In this document: one piece after another, positions 42,264-62,779 of the stretch
How positions within the stretch are numbered: the first letter of the stretch is position 1
Layout: every line of letters begins with the position of its first letter
NCBI GenBank assembly: GCA_017624285.1
Contig: JAGANI010000054.1
Coordinates: 1-62,958 of the forward strand
DNA: 62,958 nt
Origin: Clostridia bacterium
GTDB lineage: Bacteria > Bacillota > Clostridia > Christensenellales > Borkfalkiaceae
Reading direction: 5' to 3'
Made by a program: the position numbers and the translations under genes
Notes under the pieces: model-generated
The model's database searches: none
Told to the model about the DNA's origin: nothing
What the model saw: the letters and a program-made list of their open reading frames with translations, nothing else

Positions 42264-42758
42264 CTAGTCTTCGTCGTCAAAGTTATCGTCGTCTAAGTCC
42301 TCGTCCTCGTCGTCCTCATCTAATAAAAGATCGGGGTCGTCGGGGTTGACGTATTCCATATCGTCTTCCTTGCAGGCTTCGGCAAATTCATCCTCATCGT
42401 CAAAACTATCGTCCTCTTCGATAATTTCTTCTTCGTCAAGTTTACGCATTTCGTCAGCATCTTCTTCGTCATCTCTATCGTCGTTGACAAAGTCTTTCCA
42501 ACCCTCATCGTTATCGGGGTCGATTTGGTCGCTTTTAAAGTCAAGGTTATCTCTACACTTGTCGCACATTTCTTGGTCTTCAGGGATTTCCACTTGCTTA
42601 CAAATTGGGCAAAGTTTAAACTTTTCCACCCTTTCTTTATCAACGGCAAAGACTAGGCTAGGGCCTATACCGAGTTCCGCCTTACAAACCTCGCAATACT
42701 CTTCGTCTTTGTGGATGTAGTTTAGTTCACATCTTGGGCATTTTATATAATCTGCCAT
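42264..42758 (-). CDS. Double zinc-ribbon protein with a poly-acidic tail
   Basis: 164 residues with GGGAG upstream. Two CxxC...CxxC ribbons: Cys7, Cys10, Cys22, Cys25 and Cys50, Cys53, Cys65, Cys68. From residue 78 the sequence is almost continuous Asp/Glu and probably disordered. I know no family with this arrangement. It leads the veg gene and has its own promoter, so the two may be co-transcribed. A nucleic-acid-mimicking tail or metal-binding role is possible but unproven. Confidence 0.72.
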   Translation of the reverse strand: MADYIKCPRCELNYIHKDEEYCEVCKAELGIGPSLVFAVDKERVEKFKLCPICKQVEIPEDQEMCDKCRDNLDFKSDQIDPDNDEGWKDFVNDDRDDEEDADEMRKLDEEEIIEEDDSFDDEDEFAEACKEDDMEYVNPDDPDLLLDEDDEDEDLDDDNFDDED

Positions 42759-43188: not shown

Positions 43189-43947
43189 TTACGCTTTTTC
43201 TAAAAGCATTTTATCTGCAACGAGCGCAATAAACTCGCCGTTGGTGGGTTTTTCTGCTCCGATATATGCGCGCACTCCTAAAATAGAGTTTATGCTTTCA
43301 ATTCTACCACGATTCCAAGCAACTTCTATGGCATGACGAATAGCACGCTCGACTTTAGATGGCGAAGTTTCAAACTTTTCGCCTATCTTAGGGTAAAGCT
43401 TTTTTGTAATGTTGTTTATTATGCTAGGGTTTTCAACAGCCATTTTAACGCCTTCACGTAGGTATGAATATCCCTTTATATGTGGAGGTATGCCAACGTT
43501 TATAAAAATGCGGCTTATTTTTTCCTCAATGCTAATTTCTTTCGCTTTGCCAAAGATTTTTCCGCTTAAACTTTCTTTAGCGTTATCAAGGTCGATAAGG
43601 CGTTCTTTAAGTAAGGGGAAGTTAAACGGCTTAACCATATAGTAACTTGCGCCTTTATTAATTGCGCTGTTTACGATTTCTTCACGACTTAAAATACTTA
43701 ATACAACAATTTTAATATCTAAGTTAAGCGCGTTAATCTTTTCGATTACGCAAAGCCCGTCGTATCCTGGCAAAACAAGTTCCATAACGACAAAAGACGG
43801 CTTCTTTTCTTCAATAAGTTTTACGCCCGTGATACCGTCTGTTGCCGAGCCTACTACTTCAAATTCACCCGACTCGGTAAATAGCTTTTTAAGTTCCTCG
43901 TTTAACTCTGGCTTGTCTTGAAGTAAAAATATACGTTTTCGTTGCAT
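43189..43947 (-). CDS. spo0A: Stage 0 sporulation protein A, with atypical receiver site
   Basis: 252 residues. The C-terminal half (about 145-252) is the well-conserved Spo0A DNA-binding domain (GIPPHIKGYSYLREGVKMAV, SPSKVERAIRHAIEVAWNRG, PTNGEFIALVADKM), so the family is certain. The receiver half keeps the fold and Asp11, Ser84 and Lys106, but the phosphorylated Asp56 of the family is Glu56 (codon GAA, minus strand 43782-43780; VVMELVLPGYDGL), and Asp10 is Gln10 (codon CAA). Phosphorylation at the usual site should be impossible; Glu may mimic it. Three 0A-box-like sites lie upstream (44027-44073). Master regulator of sporulation entry. Confidence 0.95.
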   Translation of the reverse strand: MQRKRIFLLQDKPELNEELKKLFTESGEFEVVGSATDGITGVKLIEEKKPSFVVMELVLPGYDGLCVIEKINALNLDIKIVVLSILSREEIVNSAINKGASYYMVKPFNFPLLKERLIDLDNAKESLSGKIFGKAKEISIEEKISRIFINVGIPPHIKGYSYLREGVKMAVENPSIINNITKKLYPKIGEKFETSPSKVERAIRHAIEVAWNRGRIESINSILGVRAYIGAEKPTNGEFIALVADKMLLEKA

Positions 43948-44026: not shown

Positions 44027-44073
44027 TGTCGAATTTTGAACAAAATTAAAAACACTTGTCAAAACCTGTCGAA
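44027..44073. promoter_or_regulatory. Cluster of Spo0A-box-like sites
   Basis: TGTCGAA at 44027-44033 and 44067-44073 and TGTCAAA at 44057-44063, all on the plus strand, match the Spo0A recognition sequence TGTCRAA. They lie between divergent spo0A and spoIIR. Spacing from the spo0A start is 80-126 bases, and from spoIIR about 155-200. Confidence 0.55.
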
Positions 44074-44228: not shown

Positions 44229-44765
44229 ATGAAAAAACTTAGTATAACTTTATTTTTAATCGGCATAATAATTGCGTCTTTTATCGTTGGCGGTGGATTT
44301 GATAAAAAAGACAATTCAGTTAAAACGGAATATTTACGTATACATATCCGGGCTAATTCAAACGCTTCGTCAGACCAAACGGTTAAATATTTAATTAAGG
44401 ACGCTGTAGTCGATTTGTTAACACCGTATTTAGTAAACGTAAATAGTAAAGACGAAGCAATTAAAATTTTAAATTCGCTAGCGGATAATATAAAACAAGT
44501 TACGGATAACCTTTTAAGTAAAAACGGTTTTAAGTATACGTCTAAAGTTTCTATCGATAAAGAAAAATTCCCTACGCGTTGGTATCAAGATTATTGCTTG
44601 CCAGAAGGTATTTACGACGCAGTTATCATTTATTTGGGTGAAGCGTCGGGGGATAACTGGTGGTGCGTAGTTTACCCACCACTTTGCTTTACTGAAACCG
44701 AAGATATAACTTATAAAAGCATTTTTGCCGAAGTTATCCGAAAGTTTTACAAAAAGGAGAAGTAA
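44229..44765 (+). CDS. spoIIR: Stage II sporulation protein R
   Basis: 178 residues with AAGGAGG upstream. Signal-peptide-like membrane helix (residues 5-22), then LRIHIRANSNASSDQTVKYLIKDAV and NWWCVVYPPLCF, the two signature regions of SpoIIR. It is secreted from the forespore and triggers SpoIIGA to process pro-sigma-E in the mother cell. Its stop overlaps the start of sleB, making an operon spoIIR-sleB-ypeB. Divergent from spo0A. Confidence 0.94.
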   Translation: MKKLSITLFLIGIIIASFIVGGGFDKKDNSVKTEYLRIHIRANSNASSDQTVKYLIKDAVVDLLTPYLVNVNSKDEAIKILNSLADNIKQVTDNLLSKNGFKYTSKVSIDKEKFPTRWYQDYCLPEGIYDAVIIYLGEASGDNWWCVVYPPLCFTETEDITYKSIFAEVIRKFYKKEK

Positions 44766-45457
44766 TGAAAAAAATTTTAAAAATCTTTATTGCGCTATCC
44801 TTTGTTTTTGCGATAGGCGTATCGGTTACACATATTGTGGGCACGCCACAAATAGTTAAATCTTACGCATTAGTTTTAAAACAAGGTAGTAAAGGTAATG
44901 ACGTTAAAACCATGCAACAAAAACTTAAAAACTGGGGTTACTATACTGGGCCGGTAGATGGTATATTTGGCAAAAAAACCCGTTCCGCAGTAGTGTATTT
45001 TCAACGTAAAAACGGCTTAGTTGCAGATGGCATAGTAGGTAAAAACACTCTTAAAGCGTTGGGTATGTCATCATCGTCATCTAATGGTAGTGTGGGTGGG
45101 TATTCTTCAGCCGACGTAAACTTACTTGCTAAGCTTATTCACGCCGAAGCCCGTGGCGAAAGTTACCAAGGTCAAGTGGCGGTTGGGGCAGTAGTTTTAA
45201 ATAGGGTAAAAAGTTCTTCTTTTCCCAACACTATTTCGGGCGTAATATATCAAAAATACGCATTTACTTGCGTAGCAGACGGACAAATAAATCTTACACC
45301 TAATGCGACCGCATTAAAAGCGGCAAAAGATGCCATGAACGGCTGGGATCCTAGCGGTGGCGCAATATATTACTATAACCCTAGGGTTGCAACTAGTAGT
45401 TGGATTTTCTCTCGACAAACGACAGTGGTTATAGGTAACCACGTCTTTGCTATTTAA
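44765..45457 (+). CDS. sleB: Spore cortex-lytic enzyme SleB
   Basis: 230 residues. Signal peptide (1-30), peptidoglycan-binding domain (LKQGSKGNDVKTMQQKLKNWGYYTGPVDGIFGKKT, about 37-95), a Ser-rich linker, and a Hydrolase_2-type catalytic domain (AKLIHAEARGESYQGQVAVGAVVLNRVKS, with the family's catalytic Glu in HAEARGE near residue 128). It lyses the modified cortex during germination. It overlaps spoIIR by one base and is followed after 10 bases by ypeB, its usual partner. Confidence 0.95.
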   Translation: MKKILKIFIALSFVFAIGVSVTHIVGTPQIVKSYALVLKQGSKGNDVKTMQQKLKNWGYYTGPVDGIFGKKTRSAVVYFQRKNGLVADGIVGKNTLKALGMSSSSSNGSVGGYSSADVNLLAKLIHAEARGESYQGQVAVGAVVLNRVKSSSFPNTISGVIYQKYAFTCVADGQINLTPNATALKAAKDAMNGWDPSGGAIYYYNPRVATSSWIFSRQTTVVIGNHVFAI

Positions 45458-45467
45458 GGAGGCAAAA

Positions 45468-47009
45468 ATGGATAAAAATACAAACCCCGCCTTGCAAAAG
45501 GCAGAAGATATCGCATTTAAAAACGAAAATCATACTTTTAACACAAACTCGGCTAACGAGGACTTGGCAAAACAGCTGGAGCGTGAGGCTGAAAATACAA
45601 AATATCGCGCTATGGACAAGCCCGTTAAGGGTTATGGTATAGATAATAAAAATACAGGTGATAATTACGCAAAAAAGGATAATAATAGACCCCGTTATGG
45701 GGGTTTTATATCGGCAATTGTAGTGTTGTCTTTATCGGTTTTGGCATTATCAGGCGTAGTAGCGTCGCTTTATACAAATAAAGCTAGCACAGAAAACGTT
45801 TTGGAAACCTCGTATAAACGTGCCTTTTATGAAAGCGTTACTTACGTAGATAATATCGACTTAAATATGGCAAAAACTATGGCTTCAAACGATACTTTAG
45901 CCGAGCAAAAGTATCTAAACGACGTTATAGTAAACGCAGAACTTTGCGAAAACGCTTTAAGCGAGTTGCCACTTCAAGACGAATCTAAATTTTACACGGT
46001 AAAACTTATTAATCAGGTAGGCGATTATTCCAAATATTTGGTAAATAAATTGATAGACGGCAATCTTGTTAGTGAAACTGAGTGGAAAAATTTTGATACC
46101 TTGCGTGATGGGGTGTTAAACTTAAAAGAAACTTTGCAAAAAGTAACTGACGAAGGGGATTTTTCCTTTAAAGATATCGATAAAGAAGACAACGTTTTAT
46201 TAAAAAACCTTAACAGTTTACAAAATCTGTCTTCCGATTATCCCGAGCTTATTTATGACGGTCCGTTTTCCGATGGTAGGCTTAAAAAACAGCCAAAGGG
46301 CTTAACGGGGGCTGAAATTTCGCTAGAAACAGCTACACAACAGTTCAATAACTACTTTAAAGATTATGGCGTTAGCAAAATAAGTAGCGTGGGGGATAGT
46401 TCTTCGCAAATAAGCGCGTATACTTTTAGTGCTATAACGTCTAAAGGTGAATTATTTGCTGAAATTTCTAAAAAAGAAGGCAAACTAATACTTTTTACCT
46501 TAAACGAGAGTGGCAATAGCGCTAGCGACGTTGACGGCGCTACCGAAAGACAATATTCAAAAGCGTTAGATTTTTTAGATAGTGTTGGTGTAAAAAACGT
46601 AAAACCCGTGTGGTCGGCAGTTTCAGGTGGATATATGACGATAAACTTAGTTTCGGTGGATAACGGGGTGATTATTTATCCGGATATGATTAAGGTTAAG
46701 TTAAGCTTAACGGACGATAATGTAGTGGGGTACGAAGCATTTGGGTATTATATGAGCCACGTTAAAAGGGAATTACCCAAGGTTACCGTTAGCGAAGCGT
46801 CTGCTAAAAGCGTGTTAAACCCAAATTTTAAGGTAAAGTCATCAAGGCTTGCCCTTATACCGACTTCGGAGGATACTGAAAGTTTATGTTACGAGTTTTC
46901 TGCTTTACTTGGTGAGGACACTTATTATATTTATATTTCCGCCACCACTTGCCGTCAGGTAGAAATGTTTAAAGTGGTATCTGGTACAGAAGGCGAACTT
47001 TTAATGTAG
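45468..47009 (+). CDS. ypeB: Germination protein YpeB
   Basis: 513 residues from the ATG at 45468, chosen for AAGGAGG directly upstream. The first 70 residues are hydrophilic, one membrane segment follows (YGGFISAIVVLSLSVLALSGVVASL), then a long YpeB-type region with YPELIYDGPFSD and PYPYS-like beta repeats to the end. YpeB is needed for SleB stability and localisation in the spore. The hydrophilic N-terminal extension of about 70 residues is longer than in Bacillus YpeB. Confidence 0.9.
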   Translation: MDKNTNPALQKAEDIAFKNENHTFNTNSANEDLAKQLEREAENTKYRAMDKPVKGYGIDNKNTGDNYAKKDNNRPRYGGFISAIVVLSLSVLALSGVVASLYTNKASTENVLETSYKRAFYESVTYVDNIDLNMAKTMASNDTLAEQKYLNDVIVNAELCENALSELPLQDESKFYTVKLINQVGDYSKYLVNKLIDGNLVSETEWKNFDTLRDGVLNLKETLQKVTDEGDFSFKDIDKEDNVLLKNLNSLQNLSSDYPELIYDGPFSDGRLKKQPKGLTGAEISLETATQQFNNYFKDYGVSKISSVGDSSSQISAYTFSAITSKGELFAEISKKEGKLILFTLNESGNSASDVDGATERQYSKALDFLDSVGVKNVKPVWSAVSGGYMTINLVSVDNGVIIYPDMIKVKLSLTDDNVVGYEAFGYYMSHVKRELPKVTVSEASAKSVLNPNFKVKSSRLALIPTSEDTESLCYEFSALLGEDTYYIYISATTCRQVEMFKVVSGTEGELLM

Positions 47010-51981: not shown

Positions 51982-52475
51982 AATTTTAACCTTAATCGTT
52001 TTTACTTTTTTATTGTAATTTACATTAATAAATTAGTCAAGTAAAACTAAAATATTAACATATTTTTATTTAATTTACCGATTTTTACAAAAAAATGATA
52101 TGATTTTTATAAAATACTGATATTGTATTGCGCAAAAACAAAGGTTATAATAAAAAAAGAAATGGTTGATAAATTCAAATTTTAACGGCAAAATCTTTGC
52201 ATATAGATAAAATCTGCTAAATTTACGCTAAAATATGCAAGGACTTTTTATTTATTATCTAGTAAAATAAAATTATAAAAAACAAATTTTGTTGTTTTTA
52301 TAAATAAAACTTGGGAAACAACGTAAATTTTTACAAATTTTAAAAAATCATTATTTTTATTTAAAAAATAGCAAGAATTTAGCAAAAAAATTGATATATA
52401 ATTACTTTAAGGCTTAGTTTTAACAAAAAGTGATTTTTACACTTATTTTTAATAAAAATGATAAAAGGAGAAATT
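51982..52475. promoter_or_regulatory. 494-base divergent control region
   Basis: Very AT-rich. Minus strand: -35 TTGACT (52040-52035), 17 bp, -10 TACAAT (52017-52012) for AraC. Plus strand: -35 TTGTAT (52123-52128), 17 bp, -10 TATAAT (52146-52151) for the GH43 gene, giving a leader of about 320 bases. I could not find a clear direct repeat for AraC binding. Confidence 0.6.
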
Positions 52476-54647
52476 ATGAAAAAGTTATGTAGCTTAATAC
52501 TGGCTTGCTGTTTTTTTGTTACGCTTTTTGCTACCGGTTGTCAGCCTGATCCCGAAGTTATAACGCTTCGCCCAGAGATTGAGCTTATCGAAGGCACAGG
52601 CTATAGTAATGAAATCGGCGTGTATGATAATACTGTTAAAACCGAGTCTACAGAAGTTTACAACAAGTCGCTTTTTTATCGTAACGGTTTATTGCCTTAT
52701 ACCGCTGACCCCGGTGTATTTTATTGTAACGACGAAACCGATACCGAAAACTTCGGTACGTATTTTTGCTTTGGTACAAACGGAAACAACTCTTATAGTT
52801 GTATGTATAGCGACGACTGCGTTAGTTGGAAGTGGAAGTACGGTTCTTACGTTTGGCCGGACGACGGTTGGGAAGGCGCATATCCCTTTGCTCCGGAAAT
52901 TATTTGGGATAAAGACGCTATCCCTACCGATTACGGTATTGATGACGACGGTATAGGTACGGGTACGTATTTTATGTTTTATACTGCTGGCCCGTCTTTA
53001 ACGTATAATTACGAAACCAGTCGCGCAGGTGGGCATACTACTATCGGTTTGGCAGTTTCGGCATCGCCTTACGGCCCTTACACGATGTGGAACGGGGTAG
53101 AATTAGGCGCTACGATTGACGGTGTCAATTACGCCGAGGCAGAAAATTTTAAACTTTATACCGATTATGCTGAACAAGATTTATCAGAAGTTACTTACCA
53201 CGGCAGACGTGATGGTCAAGTTACCAACGACGACCAATGGTTTAACTTTGCCGCAGCGCGCGCATCTTTAACCTTCCAATGGGAAAATAAAGATAGCGCT
53301 GGCGAGGTTGTCAACGGCACGCTCGTAAACGAAGCCGCTAAATATATGTTAACCGACGAAGGCTATTTAAGTTTTGGTTGCTTAGATGCCCATCCCTTCG
53401 TTGACCCCGTAACGAAAGATAAATATTTTTACGTTGCGCATAGAAGTAGCGTTTATATTACCGACGATAATGACGAAAATTTATTCCCAGGGTTTTCAAG
53501 CTACGTTATTAAAACGCTCGATAACGATTGGGCGCAGTTAGATTATTCCACCATAACTAGGGTTACGCGTCCGTATTATAACTTCGTTTCAGCAGAAGCC
53601 GCAATCGCTTATAACGAGGATGCTGGTAACTTTAATGCAAGTTCTTTTAAAGACGGGTTTAAAGAAACCGTCACGCATCAAGTACAAAAAGTGCAAATTG
53701 ATATTATTGGTAACGATATCGCTATGAACGAAGGTCCTTTCGTTTATTACAACAAAGATACGGGTTTATATTATCTTACGGTATCGTCTGGTAGTTATCC
53801 ACAAAATACTTACTGTGTTATTCAGTTAGTAGGTTATAGCCCTATGGGCCCGTTTAGGAAGTTAGACGCTGACGAAGGCGGTATGGTGTTAAGCGTGCAA
53901 CTTGGTGGCGTTAACGACCTTATTACAGGTGTTGGGCATCACTCTTTTGCGCCTGCTGGTGATGATTTGTTAATTATATATCACCGTCATCAAGATTTAA
54001 AAACGAATATTCATATCCGTCACCCCGCTACGGACAGAATCGTTTGGGTTAAAAACGATTTAGGCATGACGGTTATGCGTGCAAACGGCCCTACAAGTAA
54101 TCTTCAACCGTTATTTTACGGTAACGGTTCAACCGAGTACGATATAATCTCTGGCGATGCAACGGCAAGCGCAGTTGCTATGGTTAACGGGCAAAAGGCG
54201 TATAACGACGCTAAATATATAAACGACGGCGTTATTGCTACGATGGACGATAGGCTTGAATCGCATATTAAGGAATTTGAGTCTACTGCTTTAGAAGTAA
54301 CCATAACCCTTAAGTTTGATAGTTATCGTGATATTACTGCGATTATGGTTTATAATAGCAGGGATTTTTACAAAGCGTTTTTAGACGTAAAACGCATCGA
54401 AATGGATTTTATTAAAGACGGTATCGAAGGCACTGCTTATATCAATAATTTAAAATTTGATTGGGATATGAATTTACAAGAAGTTGGCGACGCAATGCGT
54501 GCAGGAGGCTCTGCAATAGCCGTGTTTAACGAACTTAAAGTTAATGAAATCCGTATCACTATCGAAAACCCCAACATGATAGAGGGCTATGCCGGCATAG
54601 TTGCCGTGTCCGAGGTTTACGTTTTAGGTAAACCTATAAATGCGTAA
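52476..54647 (+). CDS. GH43-like glycoside hydrolase lipoprotein, copy 1
   Basis: 723 residues from the ATG at 52476 (AAAGGAG at 52464-52470). Lipoprotein signal (MKKLCSLILACCFFVTLFATGC), so outside the cell on the membrane. Residues about 55-530 are a five-bladed GH43 propeller: catalytic base in TADPGVFY, second acid in DAHPFVDP (near 305), acid/base Glu in NEGPFVYY (near 415), plus GLAVSASPYGPYT and SPMGPFRKLDADE. Residues about 545-715 look like a discoidin/CBM-type beta domain. GH43 enzymes are arabinofuranosidases, xylosidases and related; substrate unknown. It is co-transcribed with the CBM9-like lipoprotein 16 bases downstream; the pair is repeated at 57763-62779. Confidence 0.85.
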   Translation: MKKLCSLILACCFFVTLFATGCQPDPEVITLRPEIELIEGTGYSNEIGVYDNTVKTESTEVYNKSLFYRNGLLPYTADPGVFYCNDETDTENFGTYFCFGTNGNNSYSCMYSDDCVSWKWKYGSYVWPDDGWEGAYPFAPEIIWDKDAIPTDYGIDDDGIGTGTYFMFYTAGPSLTYNYETSRAGGHTTIGLAVSASPYGPYTMWNGVELGATIDGVNYAEAENFKLYTDYAEQDLSEVTYHGRRDGQVTNDDQWFNFAAARASLTFQWENKDSAGEVVNGTLVNEAAKYMLTDEGYLSFGCLDAHPFVDPVTKDKYFYVAHRSSVYITDDNDENLFPGFSSYVIKTLDNDWAQLDYSTITRVTRPYYNFVSAEAAIAYNEDAGNFNASSFKDGFKETVTHQVQKVQIDIIGNDIAMNEGPFVYYNKDTGLYYLTVSSGSYPQNTYCVIQLVGYSPMGPFRKLDADEGGMVLSVQLGGVNDLITGVGHHSFAPAGDDLLIIYHRHQDLKTNIHIRHPATDRIVWVKNDLGMTVMRANGPTSNLQPLFYGNGSTEYDIISGDATASAVAMVNGQKAYNDAKYINDGVIATMDDRLESHIKEFESTALEVTITLKFDSYRDITAIMVYNSRDFYKAFLDVKRIEMDFIKDGIEGTAYINNLKFDWDMNLQEVGDAMRAGGSAIAVFNELKVNEIRITIENPNMIEGYAGIVAVSEVYVLGKPINA

Positions 54648-54663
54648 AGGGGGGGTATAGTAA

Positions 54664-57432
54664 ATGAAGTCATTAAATAAAATTAGAATTTTATTAATAA
54701 GTTTATTCCTTTTTGGGGCAGCAATCTCTTTTACAGGTTGTAAAGAACCAGACCCTATTTATTTTACGCCAGAAGTTACCCTTGACGATTATACACCTTA
54801 TGAAGAGAAACCCCCTGTTTTTGGTGAAATCACCCTAGACGGGGTCATGGATGAAGCCGTTTGGGCTGATCAAGAAGTTGGTGAAATCACCCTTAAAGTC
54901 GGTGGCGTTGATTATTACGTAAGTTTAACTTCTTACTATACCGAACACGGCATAATTATCGGCGCTAACGTAGAAGGCTCTCCAGTATATTACAACCCTA
55001 GTAGATATACCAACCACAACAGTGGGTTAGAGTTTTACGTTGCCCCCGGTGGTACGGAGCATATCAACAAAAAGGCTTGGCAAATTTCAACCGACGTCGG
55101 CAACAACGTAGATCCCTATCTATTTTTCAACACGGCGTATATTACTTTTGGTGCGGACGTTCAGCTTGGCATAACCGTCAGTGGTCAAGTAAACACTGTA
55201 AATAGCGATGGCTATACTATGGAAATGATGGTCGCTTGGGAGTGTGTAAATTCTATCAGCAAACCTATACCGTACGTAAATCTTGACGCTGCCATTATCG
55301 ACGTAAATAGTTACGTTGGCGATAGAAACGCTTGGGTTTCTATCGGTAGGGAAGTAATCCCCGGTTGGTCGTTTAGCAGTCCTAAAACTTGGTTTACCTT
55401 TACTAAAGACGGATTTTTTGATAGTTCCAAAACACCCGTGTATACGGTTAACGACGGCAACGCTTTATCTAACGGTCAGATAGAAGTTGTAGGTAGCGTT
55501 AAAGAGGGATATTTTGTAAAAGCTAATCCATCTGAAGGTTATAGGATGAGCGCGCTTACAATAAACGACGTAAGCTACGACGTTGCTAAAGTAAACTTTG
55601 ATAAAAACTCGTTGCCCGTATTAGATATTCACGTTGAATTTTTACCTATTGAAGGCGAAAAGAGAAATATTACCATAAACAAAGGCTTTGCCTATTGTGA
55701 ACAAGTTATTCAATCAGGCACGGCGGTAACGCTTAAAAATGCCGATGGCGATTTATACACGGGCTTCGTTGGGGATAACGGCGAGTGGGAAGTAAACGTT
55801 CCTAATGGGGATTACACTTTTATAGCGCAAGGGTTTAACCCGCTTTTAGTTACCATTACGGACGATACCGTATATCAAGTAAGTTTCCGCTCAAACACCT
55901 TCGTTTCTTACAACAACGTTACCGTGGACGAAACCTTAGATACCGGCGCAACGCTTATTTTTAATCAAGTGGGCGTACCTCAAGATAACATATATTTTGC
56001 TAAGTATAACGTTGATTTTTCTAATAAAGTCGTTATCGACCAAAAAATTAAAGTTCAGCTCGGCAATCCGATATTCTTCTCCGTAAGGTTTAAAGATAGC
56101 TGGTCGTGGAATTTTGGTAATTATATAAACATTGGGTCGTGGACGGGTGCGCAAGCGCTTTATATCAAGCACGCTGACGGCACAACTCTAGAAACGTTAA
56201 ATTCTTCAAATACTACTATTATTAGCGAAAACGGTAAAAATTATATCGAAGTTAGGTTGGTGCAAGTTATTAACGGTAACACGTTAGAAGTGTACCGTGC
56301 AACCGACGACGGTTACGTTTTATACGGTAAGTTCGTTAGCGATAGACCTTTAGTTGAATGTTACGCTACCATTACCGATTATCAGGGTGAAGTCATCTTA
56401 AGCGACGTTCAAATATACGACGGCGATAACGCTTCGCTTTACAAAACGGCTACCGTATCCGTAGGTGATACTGGCGAAAGCGACGTAACTTTAAGCGCAA
56501 GCGAAGTTGGTTTTGGCGATACGGTTACAATTACAGTCGTACCAAAAATTGCCGAAGTAGGCACTAACGTAATTAAAAACGTTTTAGTTAACGGTAAGCC
56601 GGTCGAGTATGAAATCGTAGACGACGTATATCGCGTTTTATTCACACACGCGTCGGATAGCACTAGTTATCAAGTAACCGTTATAACTGAAAATTTATTA
56701 CTAAGAAACGTTACTATAAATTTAACCGCTAAACTATATAGTGGTCAAACGGCTAACGTTTTAGGCAAGACGGTTTACTTAACCGGTGAATACGCTAATA
56801 GCTTTATCGTTGAAGATTCTAACACTATTAACTTGCCTGACGGCGACTATCAACTTTTATTAGAAGGCTATTTGCCCGTATCAATTAAGGTTTCGGGCGA
56901 TACAAACTTAAACGTCGTATTAGCGCAAAACATCTTTACGCCTAACCAAAATTTTACTTACGGTTATAGCGAAACAGACGGTTATTATTATACGTCTAGC
57001 ATAAAAAACTCTTGGATGGATTTAGAAACCGTACCTGAAACCGGCAACGTTAAAGTATCGTTAACGTATTCGGGCAGGGTGGATTCAAACGTACAACAAT
57101 GGACGTCTATTTGTTTTTATAACGATACCGACAACGTTATAGAAGTTCAACTTTTAACTTGGGGCGCTACGTTTAGGTTTAAAAACGTCCACGCAAACAC
57201 GTGGCAAATTATATGTACAGAAACTTGCGATTACTCTAACGACTTTGTTATAACGCTTATTGACGGTGTGCTTAGCGTTTATTACGCAAACGACCTTGTT
57301 AATCCTATCTTTACGACTAACGAGTCTAAAAACGGTGGTGCGTTACAAAACTTTTCTAAAATTAGTATCTTCTACGGCTACGATAACGCTAGCGATTGGA
57401 AGATTACTAACCTTAAAATAGAGTCAATTTAA
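54664..57432 (+). CDS. CBM9-like carbohydrate-binding lipoprotein, copy 1
   Basis: 922 residues with AGGGGGGG upstream. Lipoprotein signal with FTGC lipobox (about residues 23-26). Residues about 50-255 match a family 9 carbohydrate-binding / DOMON-like domain (ITLDGVMDEAVWADQ, HNSGLEFYVAPGG, DAAIIDVNS, RNAWVSIG). Several beta-sandwich modules follow, and a pair of internally similar domains with the TATVSVGDTGESDV and NVTINLTAK type starts. There is no catalytic domain. It probably holds the glycan for the GH43 partner encoded upstream. The terminator at 57441-57466 ends this pair. Confidence 0.78.
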   Translation: MKSLNKIRILLISLFLFGAAISFTGCKEPDPIYFTPEVTLDDYTPYEEKPPVFGEITLDGVMDEAVWADQEVGEITLKVGGVDYYVSLTSYYTEHGIIIGANVEGSPVYYNPSRYTNHNSGLEFYVAPGGTEHINKKAWQISTDVGNNVDPYLFFNTAYITFGADVQLGITVSGQVNTVNSDGYTMEMMVAWECVNSISKPIPYVNLDAAIIDVNSYVGDRNAWVSIGREVIPGWSFSSPKTWFTFTKDGFFDSSKTPVYTVNDGNALSNGQIEVVGSVKEGYFVKANPSEGYRMSALTINDVSYDVAKVNFDKNSLPVLDIHVEFLPIEGEKRNITINKGFAYCEQVIQSGTAVTLKNADGDLYTGFVGDNGEWEVNVPNGDYTFIAQGFNPLLVTITDDTVYQVSFRSNTFVSYNNVTVDETLDTGATLIFNQVGVPQDNIYFAKYNVDFSNKVVIDQKIKVQLGNPIFFSVRFKDSWSWNFGNYINIGSWTGAQALYIKHADGTTLETLNSSNTTIISENGKNYIEVRLVQVINGNTLEVYRATDDGYVLYGKFVSDRPLVECYATITDYQGEVILSDVQIYDGDNASLYKTATVSVGDTGESDVTLSASEVGFGDTVTITVVPKIAEVGTNVIKNVLVNGKPVEYEIVDDVYRVLFTHASDSTSYQVTVITENLLLRNVTINLTAKLYSGQTANVLGKTVYLTGEYANSFIVEDSNTINLPDGDYQLLLEGYLPVSIKVSGDTNLNVVLAQNIFTPNQNFTYGYSETDGYYYTSSIKNSWMDLETVPETGNVKVSLTYSGRVDSNVQQWTSICFYNDTDNVIEVQLLTWGATFRFKNVHANTWQIICTETCDYSNDFVITLIDGVLSVYYANDLVNPIFTTNESKNGGALQNFSKISIFYGYDNASDWKITNLKIESI

Positions 57433-57440
57433 TAAAAAGA

Positions 57441-57466
57441 CGGTGGTAAGTTTACCACCGTTTTTT
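57441..57466 (+). terminator. Terminator after the first GH43/CBM9 pair
   Basis: Stem CGGTGGTAA/TTACCACCG, T-run. Confidence 0.9.
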
Positions 57467-57762
57467 ATTTATAGTTGTTTTGTACAAAACAAAAAGCGTT
57501 TTATACATTGTAAACGATATTTTTTTTATTTATAATATAATAAGACGTATTGTATAAAGTGGGCTATAATCTTACGTTAGCATTACGGGTATATAGTCGT
57601 AAAACAAACTAAATTTTAAAAACTATTGAAATTTTTATTAAAAAAATTTATAATATTAATATCTAACGTTTTTATAGTTATTTTTATGGCATTTTATAAA
57701 AATCTATATTTACAAAAGGCGTTTTATAAAATATAATCATACGTAAACTTTAAGGAGGATTT
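57467..57762 (+). promoter_or_regulatory. Control region of the second GH43/CBM9 pair
   Basis: Two candidate promoters: distal TTGTAA (57508-57513), 17 bp, TATAAT (57531-57536), leader of about 220 bases; proximal TTTACA (57709-57714), 17 bp, TATAAT (57732-57737), short leader. Otherwise AT-rich without visible structure. Confidence 0.6.
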
Positions 57763-59940
57763 ATGAAAAAAGTCTTAAAATTAATCGTAGCAGTTTTGCT
57801 ATTTACGATTGCTTTTTCAGGCTGTAAAACGGTTGATAGCCCCCCTATCGTAGTAACCGTTCCACCTGAAATCGAACTTGTAGAAGGCGAGACTTACAGT
57901 AACGAAATCGGTGTTTACGACCCCGATATTAAAGCGGAGTCTACCGAAGTTTACAACAAAAATTTATTTTATCGCAATAAATTATTGCCGACGGGCGCTG
58001 ACACCTTCGTATTATATTGCGACGACGCAACCGATACGGAAAACTACGGCAAGTATTTTTGTTGGGGTACGACTGGTGTAGGCGTTTATAATTGCTTTGC
58101 TAGTAAAGATTGCGTCAGCTGGGAAAAATATTACGGCTCTTACGTTTGGCCTACCGGTGCATGGGAAGCAAGTCTTTGCTGGGCGCCAGAAGTAGTTTAC
58201 GATAAAGACGCTTTGCCAGAGGACTACGGTTTAGAGGACGACCATATGGGTCAAGGCGTATACTTTATGACCTATACTGCAGGTATAAACGCGACTTACA
58301 GCTATTACTTAGATACTACTGATAACCAACCGATTATCGGTATGGCGGTATCTACGTCTCCGTACGGCCCATACCAAATGTATAACGGTGTCGAGAAGGG
58401 CGCTGTTATCGGTGGCGTTAACTACGCTGAGGCTGAAAATTTTAAACAGTATACCGAATATAAAGATAAAGACTTGGCGGAAGTTTCTTACCACGGTAGA
58501 CGTGGTGGCGAAGTTACTAACGACGACGTATGGTTTAACGTTGCAGCGTTTAGGGCAGCGCTTTCTTTTCAATGGGAAAATAGAGAGTTTGCTGGTCAAA
58601 CGGTAGATGGTACTTATATCCCCGAAAGCGCTAAATATATGGTTGTTGATGAAGGCGCCGGTGGTGTTAGATTGCTCGACTCCCATTGTTTTGTAGACCC
58701 CGTTAGTGGGGATAAGTATTTTTACTTTGCACGTTCAGGGTTTGGCAATCAAACGATTTTCGACGATGACGGTGTCAATCTTTTTGCAGGTAACTATATT
58801 TACGTTATTAAAACGCTCGATAACGACTGGTCTCAGTTAGATTATTCTACGGCAACTAGATTAACTAGGTCGTTCTTTGCATTTACTTCTGAAGCAGCTG
58901 CCGTTGCTTATAACGAAATAGCTTCTGAATTCGACCATAGTTTATATAAAGACGGCTTTAAGGAAACAAAAGAGTATCATCAACAAAAAATCTCAATCGA
59001 CCTTGACAACATCGCTATGAACGAAGGCCCTGTTATGACTTATAACCCCGATACAGGTTTATATTATTTAACCGTTTCTTCGGGTAGTTATCCAAATAAT
59101 ACTTACTGCGTTATTCAGTTAGTAGGGTATTCACCTGTTGGCCCGTTTAGAAAGTTAGATGCTGACGAAGGCGGTTTGGTTTTAGGCGTTGATAACGGCA
59201 CGGTATCCGACGTAATTACGGGCGTAGGGCATCACAGTATCGTTCAAGTGGGGGATGAGCTTTTAATCGTTTACCACCGTCACGTTGCTTTAACGGATAA
59301 CATTCACAATCGTCATCCCGCAACCGATAGGCTTAGATGGGTTAAAAACGATTTGGGTATGACGGTATTATACGCTAACGGTCCTACTAGTAACTTACAG
59401 CCGTTATTCTACGACAATGGCTCAACCGACTACGATATAATTTCTGACGAAGCAAGCGTTTCAGTCGTAGCCGAAGTTGACGGTCAAAAAGCGTATAACG
59501 ACGCTAAACTATTAAACGACGATATCATCGTTACTTTACCTAATATGTTAGCGCCACACGTTAAGGAATTTGAGTTTACTTCTGATCAAGCCGTAATAAC
59601 TTTAACGTTTGATAGTTATCGTGATATTACCGCGATTATGGTCTATAACAGTAGGGATTATTATAAATCTTTCTTAGACGTAAATCGTATCGAAATGGAT
59701 TTTATTAAAGACGGTGTACAAGGTACGGCAGTAATTAAAAATCTTGAGTTTGATTGGAATATGAACGAACAAACCATTGGCGAGCGTATGCGCGCAGGTG
59801 GTTCGGCAGTGGCAGTGTTTAACGAACTTAAAGTTAATGAAATCCGTATAACCGTAAACAACGTTAATGCGGCTTCAGGTTATTCAGGCATAACGGCTAT
59901 ATCCGAAATTTACGTTTTGGGCAAGCCATTAAATTCTTAA
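57763..59940 (+). CDS. GH43-like glycoside hydrolase lipoprotein, copy 2
   Basis: 725 residues with AAGGAGG upstream. Lipoprotein signal (MKKVLKLIVAVLLFTIAFSGC). It is collinear with copy 1 over nearly its whole length, with whole motifs shared (EIGVYD, ESTEVYN, NEGP, TLTFDSYRDITAIMVYNSRD). Catalytic acids are kept, but the first motif is GADTFVLYC rather than TADPGVFYC and the second is DSHCFVDP rather than DAHPFVDP, so the sugar fit may differ. Same order: enzyme, then CBM9-like partner 16 bases downstream. Confidence 0.85.
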   Translation: MKKVLKLIVAVLLFTIAFSGCKTVDSPPIVVTVPPEIELVEGETYSNEIGVYDPDIKAESTEVYNKNLFYRNKLLPTGADTFVLYCDDATDTENYGKYFCWGTTGVGVYNCFASKDCVSWEKYYGSYVWPTGAWEASLCWAPEVVYDKDALPEDYGLEDDHMGQGVYFMTYTAGINATYSYYLDTTDNQPIIGMAVSTSPYGPYQMYNGVEKGAVIGGVNYAEAENFKQYTEYKDKDLAEVSYHGRRGGEVTNDDVWFNVAAFRAALSFQWENREFAGQTVDGTYIPESAKYMVVDEGAGGVRLLDSHCFVDPVSGDKYFYFARSGFGNQTIFDDDGVNLFAGNYIYVIKTLDNDWSQLDYSTATRLTRSFFAFTSEAAAVAYNEIASEFDHSLYKDGFKETKEYHQQKISIDLDNIAMNEGPVMTYNPDTGLYYLTVSSGSYPNNTYCVIQLVGYSPVGPFRKLDADEGGLVLGVDNGTVSDVITGVGHHSIVQVGDELLIVYHRHVALTDNIHNRHPATDRLRWVKNDLGMTVLYANGPTSNLQPLFYDNGSTDYDIISDEASVSVVAEVDGQKAYNDAKLLNDDIIVTLPNMLAPHVKEFEFTSDQAVITLTFDSYRDITAIMVYNSRDYYKSFLDVNRIEMDFIKDGVQGTAVIKNLEFDWNMNEQTIGERMRAGGSAVAVFNELKVNEIRITVNNVNAASGYSGITAISEIYVLGKPLNS

Positions 59941-59956
59941 AAGGGGGTAAGTAATA

Positions 59957-62779
59957 ATGAAAGCATTAAGTAAAATTAAGATATTATTAATAACCCTTTT
60001 AGCTGTATCGTCGCTATTTTTTACCGTAGGTTGCGTTAAACAAAACCCGCCTGAAACTATTTACGACACCCCGTCAGTAACCATCGACGATTACGTTTAT
60101 ACGCCAAAGTATAATAATTACTCTGGTATTACGCTTGACGGCAACATAGACGAAGATATTTGGCAAAACCAAAATAAGTTTATTGGCTCGCTTGAAGTTG
60201 GCGGTGTTATGCACGATTTTGAAACGTCTTCATATTATGCGGAAGAAGGTTTCGTAGTATACTTTAAAGTTACTGGCGCAGCGGTATATTTTAACCCTTA
60301 CCGCGTAGCTAATCAAAACAGTGGTTTAGAGCTTTATTTTGCAAAAGGCAGTATGACCGATATAAAGGAAGGCTCGTTTGAAGTCCCCATTGACGTAGGT
60401 GGCGCGCAGGATTCTAAAAAATATTTATCACCAGGTACGCTTGGATATGGTTACCACAATTTTTATATCTTTGTAGATAGGGCTGTGACGATTGACGGCG
60501 AGCTAAATAAACCCACAAATAATGGTTTTTGTATGGAAGTTATGTTTCCGTGGGAACATTTAACCGAAGACGGCAAACCTTGTGAAACCGTTTGTCTAGA
60601 CGCGGCAATCATCAACGTTAACAGTGAAACTGGTGGCAGAAACGCTTGGGTATCTACGTCTAAAACGTTTTTCCCAGGTTATAAATGGGAAAACCCCCAA
60701 ACATGGCATAGATTTTCTAGCGCTGGTTACGTAAATGAAAATAGTCAACCATTAGTTAATATTAACGATGGCGAAGAACTACAAAACGGCACGGTAGAGG
60801 TTACTGGTACGTTTGGTTCTGGTGTAAGCGTGCGCGCACTCCCCGAAGCAGGTTATATGGTTGACGAGTTTATTATCAACGGTGTTTCGTACGATTACCC
60901 CTTAGTAACGTTTGATAGTAAAGCGATTTTCTCACTCGATATTAAAATTTCGTTTAAGCAAGTAGAGGGTGAGTTGCGTAGCTTTAAATTAAAAGCTGGT
61001 TATCCTGGTGGTGTGTACGAAGCTGTTACCGATGGCGAAGCAATCGCACTAGTTGACGGCGACGGCAATAATTACTCAGGCGTAGTGCAAAGTGGTGAAG
61101 TTTTAATTACCCTACCTGACGGCAGTTACGTTGTTAAAACACAGTCTTACGGCGAAACCACGATAGACGTATCCCAAGGTTTAGACGAATATGATATACT
61201 TTTAAACAAAAAATTGTTTAAGCGTTATGATGACCATTTAGTTGTTCACGATGCTGCTATAAGCGGTCAAACCTTTGGCTTTAACGAAATCGGATTTAAA
61301 ATCAACAGTTATGCTGATGGCGAACGTGGCGCGTTCGATATTGACTTTAGCAAGCCCGTTGTAATGGATTACACGCTAAAAATTCAAGTCGGTAGGGAGA
61401 TTTTCGCATCACTTCGTTTTAAAAAATCAAGTGGTGAAATGGAAACGGCTTTCTTCAATTTTGGCTCTTGGTCCAGTAATCAAAAAATCATCATCAAAAA
61501 CATTAATCAAGAAGTTAAAACTTACGACGCTACTGTAGCTGAAGAAGTTAACGAAGCCGGTAATTACTTCTTAAAGATTAATTTATACCAAATTTACGAT
61601 GGCAAAACTGTAACCCTTTACGAAAAGGCTAACGGCAAACTTAAATATATTTCTTCTTATAACGTAAACGGTACTCCGTCCGAAATGGTTGTAATTATAA
61701 CCGATAACAAGGGTGAAGTTTGGTTTGAAAATTTCAAAGTTGTTACGGGTGATGCAATTAGTAAATATTCATCGGCAGACGTTTTAGTTTCTTCTTCCGG
61801 TGATAGTAACGTAACAATTTCTAAAGAAAAAATCGGTTTAGGTGAGAAAGTTGAAGTTTTAGCAACGCCTAAATCTGCCGATGTTGGCGAAAACGTAATT
61901 ACAAAAATAACCGTAAACGGCAACGAGGTTGATTTTACTTTAGATAAAGGCGTGGCAAAATTATCTATTAGCCATTTAGATGCAAATATTGATGCTTACG
62001 ACGTAAAAGTTTACACCAAAAACGTACGCTATAAAGACGTAACTATAAACGTAGTTGGCAAGGCGTTTGATGGTAGTAGTTTATCGTTAGCAGGTAAAAA
62101 AGTTACGTTGCAAGGCTTAATTAATACGGAGTTTAATATTGGCTCTGGCGATAACGTAGTAAGTTTAGTTTCTAGCGATTATATCGTAAATATTGAAGGT
62201 TTCTTACCAGCAACTATCTTAGTAGAAGACGATACTACTTCGGTAGACGTTGTTTTAGCTGAAGACATTGTTGATTATTTCGAAAAAGACTTCAAACTTT
62301 CTTACAGCGAAGAAAACGGCTATACGCTTACTTCATCGGATTATTATTCTAGGGTTCATTTTAATAGGAATATTCCTCTTAGCAATAATCTTAAAATTTC
62401 CTTTACCTATAACGGTAGGATAGCGGCGGACGTTAAACAATGGGTAGAATTTACCTTTATCGCTTCTAACGGTAGCCAGTTAAAAGCGCAAATCTTAACT
62501 TGGGGAACGAGTTTCGTGTTTAAAAACCCCCTCTTTACTAGTGAAGCAACTAATATTAGTGGCTATAGTGGACAGATTTCTAAAAACTTCTATTTAATCT
62601 ATAACGCTGGCGTGCTTTCGTTATACGATGGCGACAACGACACGGTATTAGCAACGGTTTCAACCGCTAGCGAACCTGGTGTAATGACAAATTTACAAGA
62701 GTTCTTTGTTCATTACGCTTTCGATAATACCGATCCTTGGTCGCTTACCAACTTTACGATAGAAGACTTATCTGAATAA
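59957..62779 (+). CDS. CBM9-like carbohydrate-binding lipoprotein, copy 2
   Basis: 940 residues with AAGGGGG upstream. Lipoprotein signal with TVGC lipobox (about residues 23-26). CBM9-like N-terminus (ITLDGNIDEDIWQNQ, NQNSGLELYFAKG), then the same chain of beta-sandwich modules as copy 1 (VNINDGEELQNGTVEVTGTF, SYNVNGTPSEMVV, DVLVSSSGDSNVTISKEKIG). No catalytic domain. Partner of the copy 2 enzyme. Confidence 0.78.
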   Translation: MKALSKIKILLITLLAVSSLFFTVGCVKQNPPETIYDTPSVTIDDYVYTPKYNNYSGITLDGNIDEDIWQNQNKFIGSLEVGGVMHDFETSSYYAEEGFVVYFKVTGAAVYFNPYRVANQNSGLELYFAKGSMTDIKEGSFEVPIDVGGAQDSKKYLSPGTLGYGYHNFYIFVDRAVTIDGELNKPTNNGFCMEVMFPWEHLTEDGKPCETVCLDAAIINVNSETGGRNAWVSTSKTFFPGYKWENPQTWHRFSSAGYVNENSQPLVNINDGEELQNGTVEVTGTFGSGVSVRALPEAGYMVDEFIINGVSYDYPLVTFDSKAIFSLDIKISFKQVEGELRSFKLKAGYPGGVYEAVTDGEAIALVDGDGNNYSGVVQSGEVLITLPDGSYVVKTQSYGETTIDVSQGLDEYDILLNKKLFKRYDDHLVVHDAAISGQTFGFNEIGFKINSYADGERGAFDIDFSKPVVMDYTLKIQVGREIFASLRFKKSSGEMETAFFNFGSWSSNQKIIIKNINQEVKTYDATVAEEVNEAGNYFLKINLYQIYDGKTVTLYEKANGKLKYISSYNVNGTPSEMVVIITDNKGEVWFENFKVVTGDAISKYSSADVLVSSSGDSNVTISKEKIGLGEKVEVLATPKSADVGENVITKITVNGNEVDFTLDKGVAKLSISHLDANIDAYDVKVYTKNVRYKDVTINVVGKAFDGSSLSLAGKKVTLQGLINTEFNIGSGDNVVSLVSSDYIVNIEGFLPATILVEDDTTSVDVVLAEDIVDYFEKDFKLSYSEENGYTLTSSDYYSRVHFNRNIPLSNNLKISFTYNGRIAADVKQWVEFTFIASNGSQLKAQILTWGTSFVFKNPLFTSEATNISGYSGQISKNFYLIYNAGVLSLYDGDNDTVLATVSTASEPGVMTNLQEFFVHYAFDNTDPWSLTNFTIEDLSE

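Follow-up and report, generated by a model that had tools for sequence, protein, structure and literature searches.

Spo0A is the master switch of spore formation and is normally activated by a phosphate on one aspartate; in current accounts sporulation starts on this phosphorylation, and lineages differ in which kinases act. The locus described here raises the question of how such a switch is operated where the aspartate is gone. The window, a contig of 62,958 nucleotides from a MAG of the Borkfalkiaceae (1.45 Mb, 83% complete), carries on its minus strand a spo0A gene (43189-43947) with glutamate at the phosphoacceptor position, from which a preliminary description of this DNA had proposed that phosphorelay control was lost.

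The minus-strand frame at 43189-43947 encodes 252 residues, the plus-strand translation of the same span being full of stops. Against the curated Spo0A model TIGR02875 the protein scores 243.9 bits, above the cut-off of 200, and it contains both Pfam domains: a receiver (residues 1-117, 43597-43947, minus strand; PF00072 at residues 6-117) and a Spo0A_C DNA-binding domain (residues 144-246, 43210-43518, minus strand; PF08769, 129.8 bits). Read directly on the minus strand, codons 10 and 11 (43915-43920) are CAA and GAC, codon 56 (43780-43782) is GAA, codon 84 is AGT and codon 106 (43630-43632) is AAG. In the alignment Q10, D11 and E56 stand opposite D10 and D11, the metal-binding acid pair, and D56, the phosphoacceptor, of B. 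subtilis Spo0A, and S84 and K106 opposite T86 and the conserved receiver lysine K108. The curated model and canonical relatives agree with the B. subtilis reference used for this numbering. Codon reading and alignment together confirm the pocket residues (Q10, D11, E56, S84, K106) and the CAA and GAA codons given in the preliminary description. Of the residues that make a receiver phosphorylatable, namely the acid pair, Asp56, a Thr or Ser and a Lys, the window protein keeps D11, the Ser and the Lys and lacks D10 and D56; a pseudo-receiver lacks at least one catalytic residue.

The second mark of a pseudo-receiver, a preserved receiver fold, is also predicted. In an AlphaFold2 model of the window protein (mean pLDDT 86, pTM 0.54) the receiver is confident (blocks at 90-98) and the DNA-binding domain mostly so, the low pTM making the relative placement of the two domains uncertain. 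Foldseek matches the receiver to the Spo0A receivers 1qmp and 5wq0 (TM ~0.85-0.95 normalised by target) and the DNA-binding domain to 1lq1, a Spo0A-DNA complex, and to 1fc3, at ~50% identity. No second Spo0A_C protein was found in the 83%-complete window genome, which has one match in total, and five relatives that are 98-99% complete (G006, G009, G026, G041, G054) have one match each; the normal second Spo0A that the preliminary description named as evidence against its reading is not seen among them. Many genomes of the order carry an extra short Spo0A_C match (G216 C7:74535-74828, G245 C1:968-1261, G248 C2:52800-53105, G259 C5:30297-30605 and others), in frames of ~109-150 residues that are too short to also hold a receiver domain.

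Spo0A sequences were collected from the genus, the family, a named genome collection and the order, which includes Pumilibacter (the P. muris Spo0A is carried by f32 g86), and a tree was computed without the trait columns. The Spo0As of the family form one clade with 103 distinct sequences from 18 genera (local support 91). Acids at positions 10 and 11 together with D56 occur in none of the 103, against 79 of 102 from other families of the order; as read from the aligned sequences, the phosphorylation pocket of acid pair plus Asp56 is lost throughout the family. Pro60, at the D+4 position, is present in 73 of 79 canonical receivers versus 11 of 103 clade members, and loss of this proline is common in pseudo-receivers and a hallmark of them (PMC12632262). 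At position 56 the 82 sequences that lacked Asp in a first alignment have Glu (37), Gly (27), Ser (11), Asn (6) or Ala (1). Some clade members retain D56 and might still be phosphorylated; these comprise all eight sampled members of genus g2, each with Q10-D11-D56, and part of g7, g15, g18 and g6. Parsimony places 37 changes at position 56 over the whole tree, the succession of changes within the family being uncertain. The tree has about six further losses of D56 outside the family (f10, f11, f19, f24, f28, f29), mostly to Glu, which was reached about five times: in f11, f19, f28 and f29, and in f10, where the tree passes through Cys.

The rest of the receiver has been maintained, as indicated by dN/dS values that match those of canonical pairs (~0.04-0.13 for degenerate pairs, 0.03-0.14 for canonical pairs) and by receiver divergence that is similar in the two sets at equal distance in the DNA-binding domain. 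In B. subtilis numbering no degenerate sequence departs from D63, G64, G101 or P109, 99 of the 103 clade members have Lys108 and 84 have Ser86 or Thr86, and most columns of the Spo0A_C recognition region (S197-A210) are invariant in a 49-row alignment. Together with the curated-model pass and both Pfam domains, the low receiver dN/dS bears out the earlier statement that the DNA-binding domain is intact and the gene not decayed. The question whether E56 and Q10 are fixed in relatives under purifying selection is answered yes for the selection and no for E56, given that position 56 is E, G, S, N, A or sometimes D; and although some relatives do keep Asp56, the pseudogene-like decay that was to accompany such a finding is absent. 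Sequencing error at codon 56, or recent decay, is ruled out by the recurrence of pocket loss across the 103 distinct clade sequences and by the receiver dN/dS.

The gene lies among sporulation genes. Across a shared intergenic region its divergent neighbour is spoIIR (44229-44765, plus strand; PF09551, 140.5 bits; TIGR02837, 150.7 bits against a cut-off of 151.9), followed on the same strand by sleB, encoding a spore cortex-lytic enzyme (44765-45457; TIGR02869, 288 bits, over the cut-off), and by the germination gene ypeB (45447-47009; PF14620 and PF20769; TIGR02889, 282.5 bits against a cut-off of 303.55). On the minus strand, 42264-42758 encodes a 164-residue acidic protein with CxxC pairs and no NCBIfam match, which synteny makes a possible partner of Spo0A; in relatives its gene is usually the first conserved one to follow spo0A. 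Many relatives have the co-oriented order spo0A, 164-residue protein, veg, 507-residue protein, ispE, spoIIR, sleB, ypeB, from which the window differs in having the last three genes on the other side of spo0A. The 507-residue protein has no family match, and from its position we presume it to be SipL-like. Two successive pairs of large reading frames at 52458-62779 (plus strand; 729 and 922, then 725 and 940 residues) look, by length only, like a tandem two-gene repeat.

Beyond the locus, 59 of 61 family genomes have a SpoIIE match; almost all of these matches stand well clear of background, and none reaches a cut-off that is exceeded by B. subtilis. Of 11 family genomes examined for SpoIVA, 10 have the full protein; in the set of 20 genomes examined, 18 have a match above the cut-off and the window MAG is one of the two that do not. 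Neither SpoIVA nor SpoIIAA has a detectable match in that 83%-complete MAG, which may reflect incompleteness. Gene content and gene context thus suggest that the family sporulates.

The intergenic region itself points to a self-controlled promoter. Two perfect 0A boxes (TGTCGAA; 44027-44033 and, 40 bp away, 44067-44073, both on the plus strand) lie in the 281-bp gap between spo0A and spoIIR; two matches to TGTCGAAWWT in the whole window are unremarkable as a count, yet both fall in this gap. A perfect box within 300 bp upstream of spo0A is found in 51 of 64 clade members, versus 2.3 expected, at most 9 in 500 random sequences with matching dinucleotide composition, and 0-5 matches for control heptamers; 9 of 18 outgroups have one as well. 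We infer from this conservation that spo0A is autoregulated through its upstream boxes. Boxes are weakly enriched at spoIIE (5/30 strict) and spoIIAA (7/30; 1.1 expected). The exact 12-base pattern has just three sites in the window genome, two of them at spo0A, so that no wider regulon is resolved, and a sigma-70 promoter scan of the intergenic region gave hits no more often than chance.

Each of the three histidine kinases found in the window genome (C8, C22, C23) lies ~1.4 kb from a response regulator of its own, so none of those found in this 83%-complete MAG is unpaired, which answers the search for orphan kinases that the preliminary description called for. In G177 and G137 Spo0A is the only PF00072 protein and, among the matches listed, there is no kinase-like HATPase, the listed frames of ~585-665 residues being presumably gyrase, MutL or HSP90, which are of that size; G051 and G021 have no HisKA match. 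All four genomes keep SpoIVA. Among the matches listed, the canonical outgroups that were searched have many kinases with large hybrid frames and the family has few except in G007, where a 662-residue HATPase and receiver frame (C20:15995-21003) lies directly upstream of spo0A (L151), in a genus of which some members keep D56. Where D56 is lost the median number of HisKA matches is 2.5 in f1 and 1 elsewhere, against 5 otherwise (rank test p ~2e-6), a difference that is not independent of ancestry. Loss of kinases as the cause of D56 loss was considered and rejected: an independent-pairs test on the tree had five usable pairs and was not significant, and G297 and G271 have the canonical triad yet no HisKA. 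Nor is kinase poverty the whole story, since G011 (family genus g11, 2.0 Mb) has 58 receiver and 46 HATPase_c matches, far above its relatives; its Spo0A (L148) is degenerate too, with D-V-N. In f28 g45, four very small genomes (G259, G279, G236, G314; L344, L345, L346, L347; 0.8-0.9 Mb, 98-100% complete) with D-K-E at positions 10, 11 and 56, no HisKA match and full SpoIVA look like spore formers without HisKA kinases. Family-wide pocket loss, the pairing of all kinases found in the window genome and relatives without a detectable kinase together give good support to the proposal that phosphorelay control has been lost.

The family retains the remainder of the protein, with the DNA-binding half and the target sites, but not the pocket, and so would have to control Spo0A in some way other than phosphorylation. 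We think it probable that the window protein is a genuine Spo0A with a receiver turned pseudo-receiver, that it is active without phosphate, and that it is controlled by its amount, through an autoregulated promoter, or by a partner. Under such a mechanism Spo0A would not be switchable by aspartyl phosphorylation; the unphosphorylated protein would already be able to pair and bind 0A boxes, and sporulation would therefore depend mainly on how much Spo0A is made, as set by the autoregulated spo0A promoter and other inputs, with secondary signals also needed. In B. subtilis a constitutive spo0A allele can drive sporulation as long as there is a second signal (PMC4689505). The earlier suggestion of control by amount is accordingly plausible in the light of the perfect 0A boxes, although a ligand or partner could be the switch instead.

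That last arrangement, in which the receiver would sense a small molecule or protein partner that controls Spo0A pairing, is possible if somewhat doubtful. Strong purifying selection on the receiver and the retention of the Lys, Tyr104 and the D63-G64 loop are what a sensor would predict, and the conserved 164-residue gene usually found after spo0A could supply a partner; however, the 164-residue gene also accompanies canonical Spo0A (L099, L112) and so is not specific to the altered form. A different role for position 56 follows from the remark in the preliminary description that Asp-to-Glu changes can mimic phosphorylation in some receivers: Glu56 would be a constant phosphomimic, holding Spo0A active at all times in this lineage. 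Glu is indeed the commonest replacement and was reached repeatedly outside the clade, but Gly, Ser, Asn and Ala occupy the same position in proteins equally conserved elsewhere, and PMC4395418, on aspartate-less receivers, cites Spo0A among the receivers in which Asp-to-Glu alone does not suffice for constitutive activity. With position 56 this variable, phosphomimicry does not stand as a general rule and we consider it very unlikely to explain the window protein, though E56 could matter within the window's own sub-clade.

Sporulation may have been lost, or be in the course of loss, leaving Spo0A as an ordinary regulator of other genes; in favour of this, a machine-learning survey scored most Christensenellales MAGs in one host set as non-sporulating (PMC12536801). 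We regard this as unlikely, given the intact SpoIIR, SleB and YpeB genes that adjoin spo0A and the retention of SpoIIE and SpoIVA across the family, even in genomes near 1 Mb. Phosphorylation could also persist at a different residue, or with low efficiency in the altered pocket, in keeping with the D11 and Lys106 that remain in the window protein and the D56 of some members; the joint degradation of acid pair, D56 and D+4 Pro in most members, and the lack of an unpaired kinase among those found in the window genome, make this highly improbable.

The phosphate-independent Spo0A that we favour differs from each known system that it resembles. It shares with canonical Spo0A (B. subtilis, clostridia; TIGR02875) the two domains, a near-identical Spo0A_C recognition region, an 0A box upstream of its gene and sporulation neighbours, but in the family the acid pair and Asp56 are never intact together, and most members lose D56 and the D+4 Pro. 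Pseudo- or aspartate-less receivers such as ChxR, GlnR, HP1043 and RamR (PMC12632262, PMC4395418) likewise keep the fold without the phosphorylation residues, often have Glu at the Asp site and have a DNA-binding output, yet they are other regulators and not Spo0A. Clostridial Spo0A phosphorylated directly by orphan kinases (PMC11210211) also dispenses with a phosphorelay; it is still phosphorylated, whereas here the site is lost and no kinase among those found in the window genome is unpaired. The B. subtilis sad67 protein (PMC4689505), a phosphorylation-independent Spo0A that can drive sporulation with another signal, is a laboratory mutant as opposed to a natural, lineage-wide state. The open-access literature searched contained no report of Spo0A as a pseudo-receiver.

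Whether sporulation in a whole endospore-forming family begins from a Spo0A that never receives a phosphate, in some members without any histidine kinases, is in our judgement evenly poised. If it does, phosphorylation of Spo0A, the central step of sporulation, would be dispensable; gene-presence surveys that treat spo0A as a sign of ordinary sporulation control call for caution, and the family would offer natural proteins in which to study the control of pseudo-receivers.
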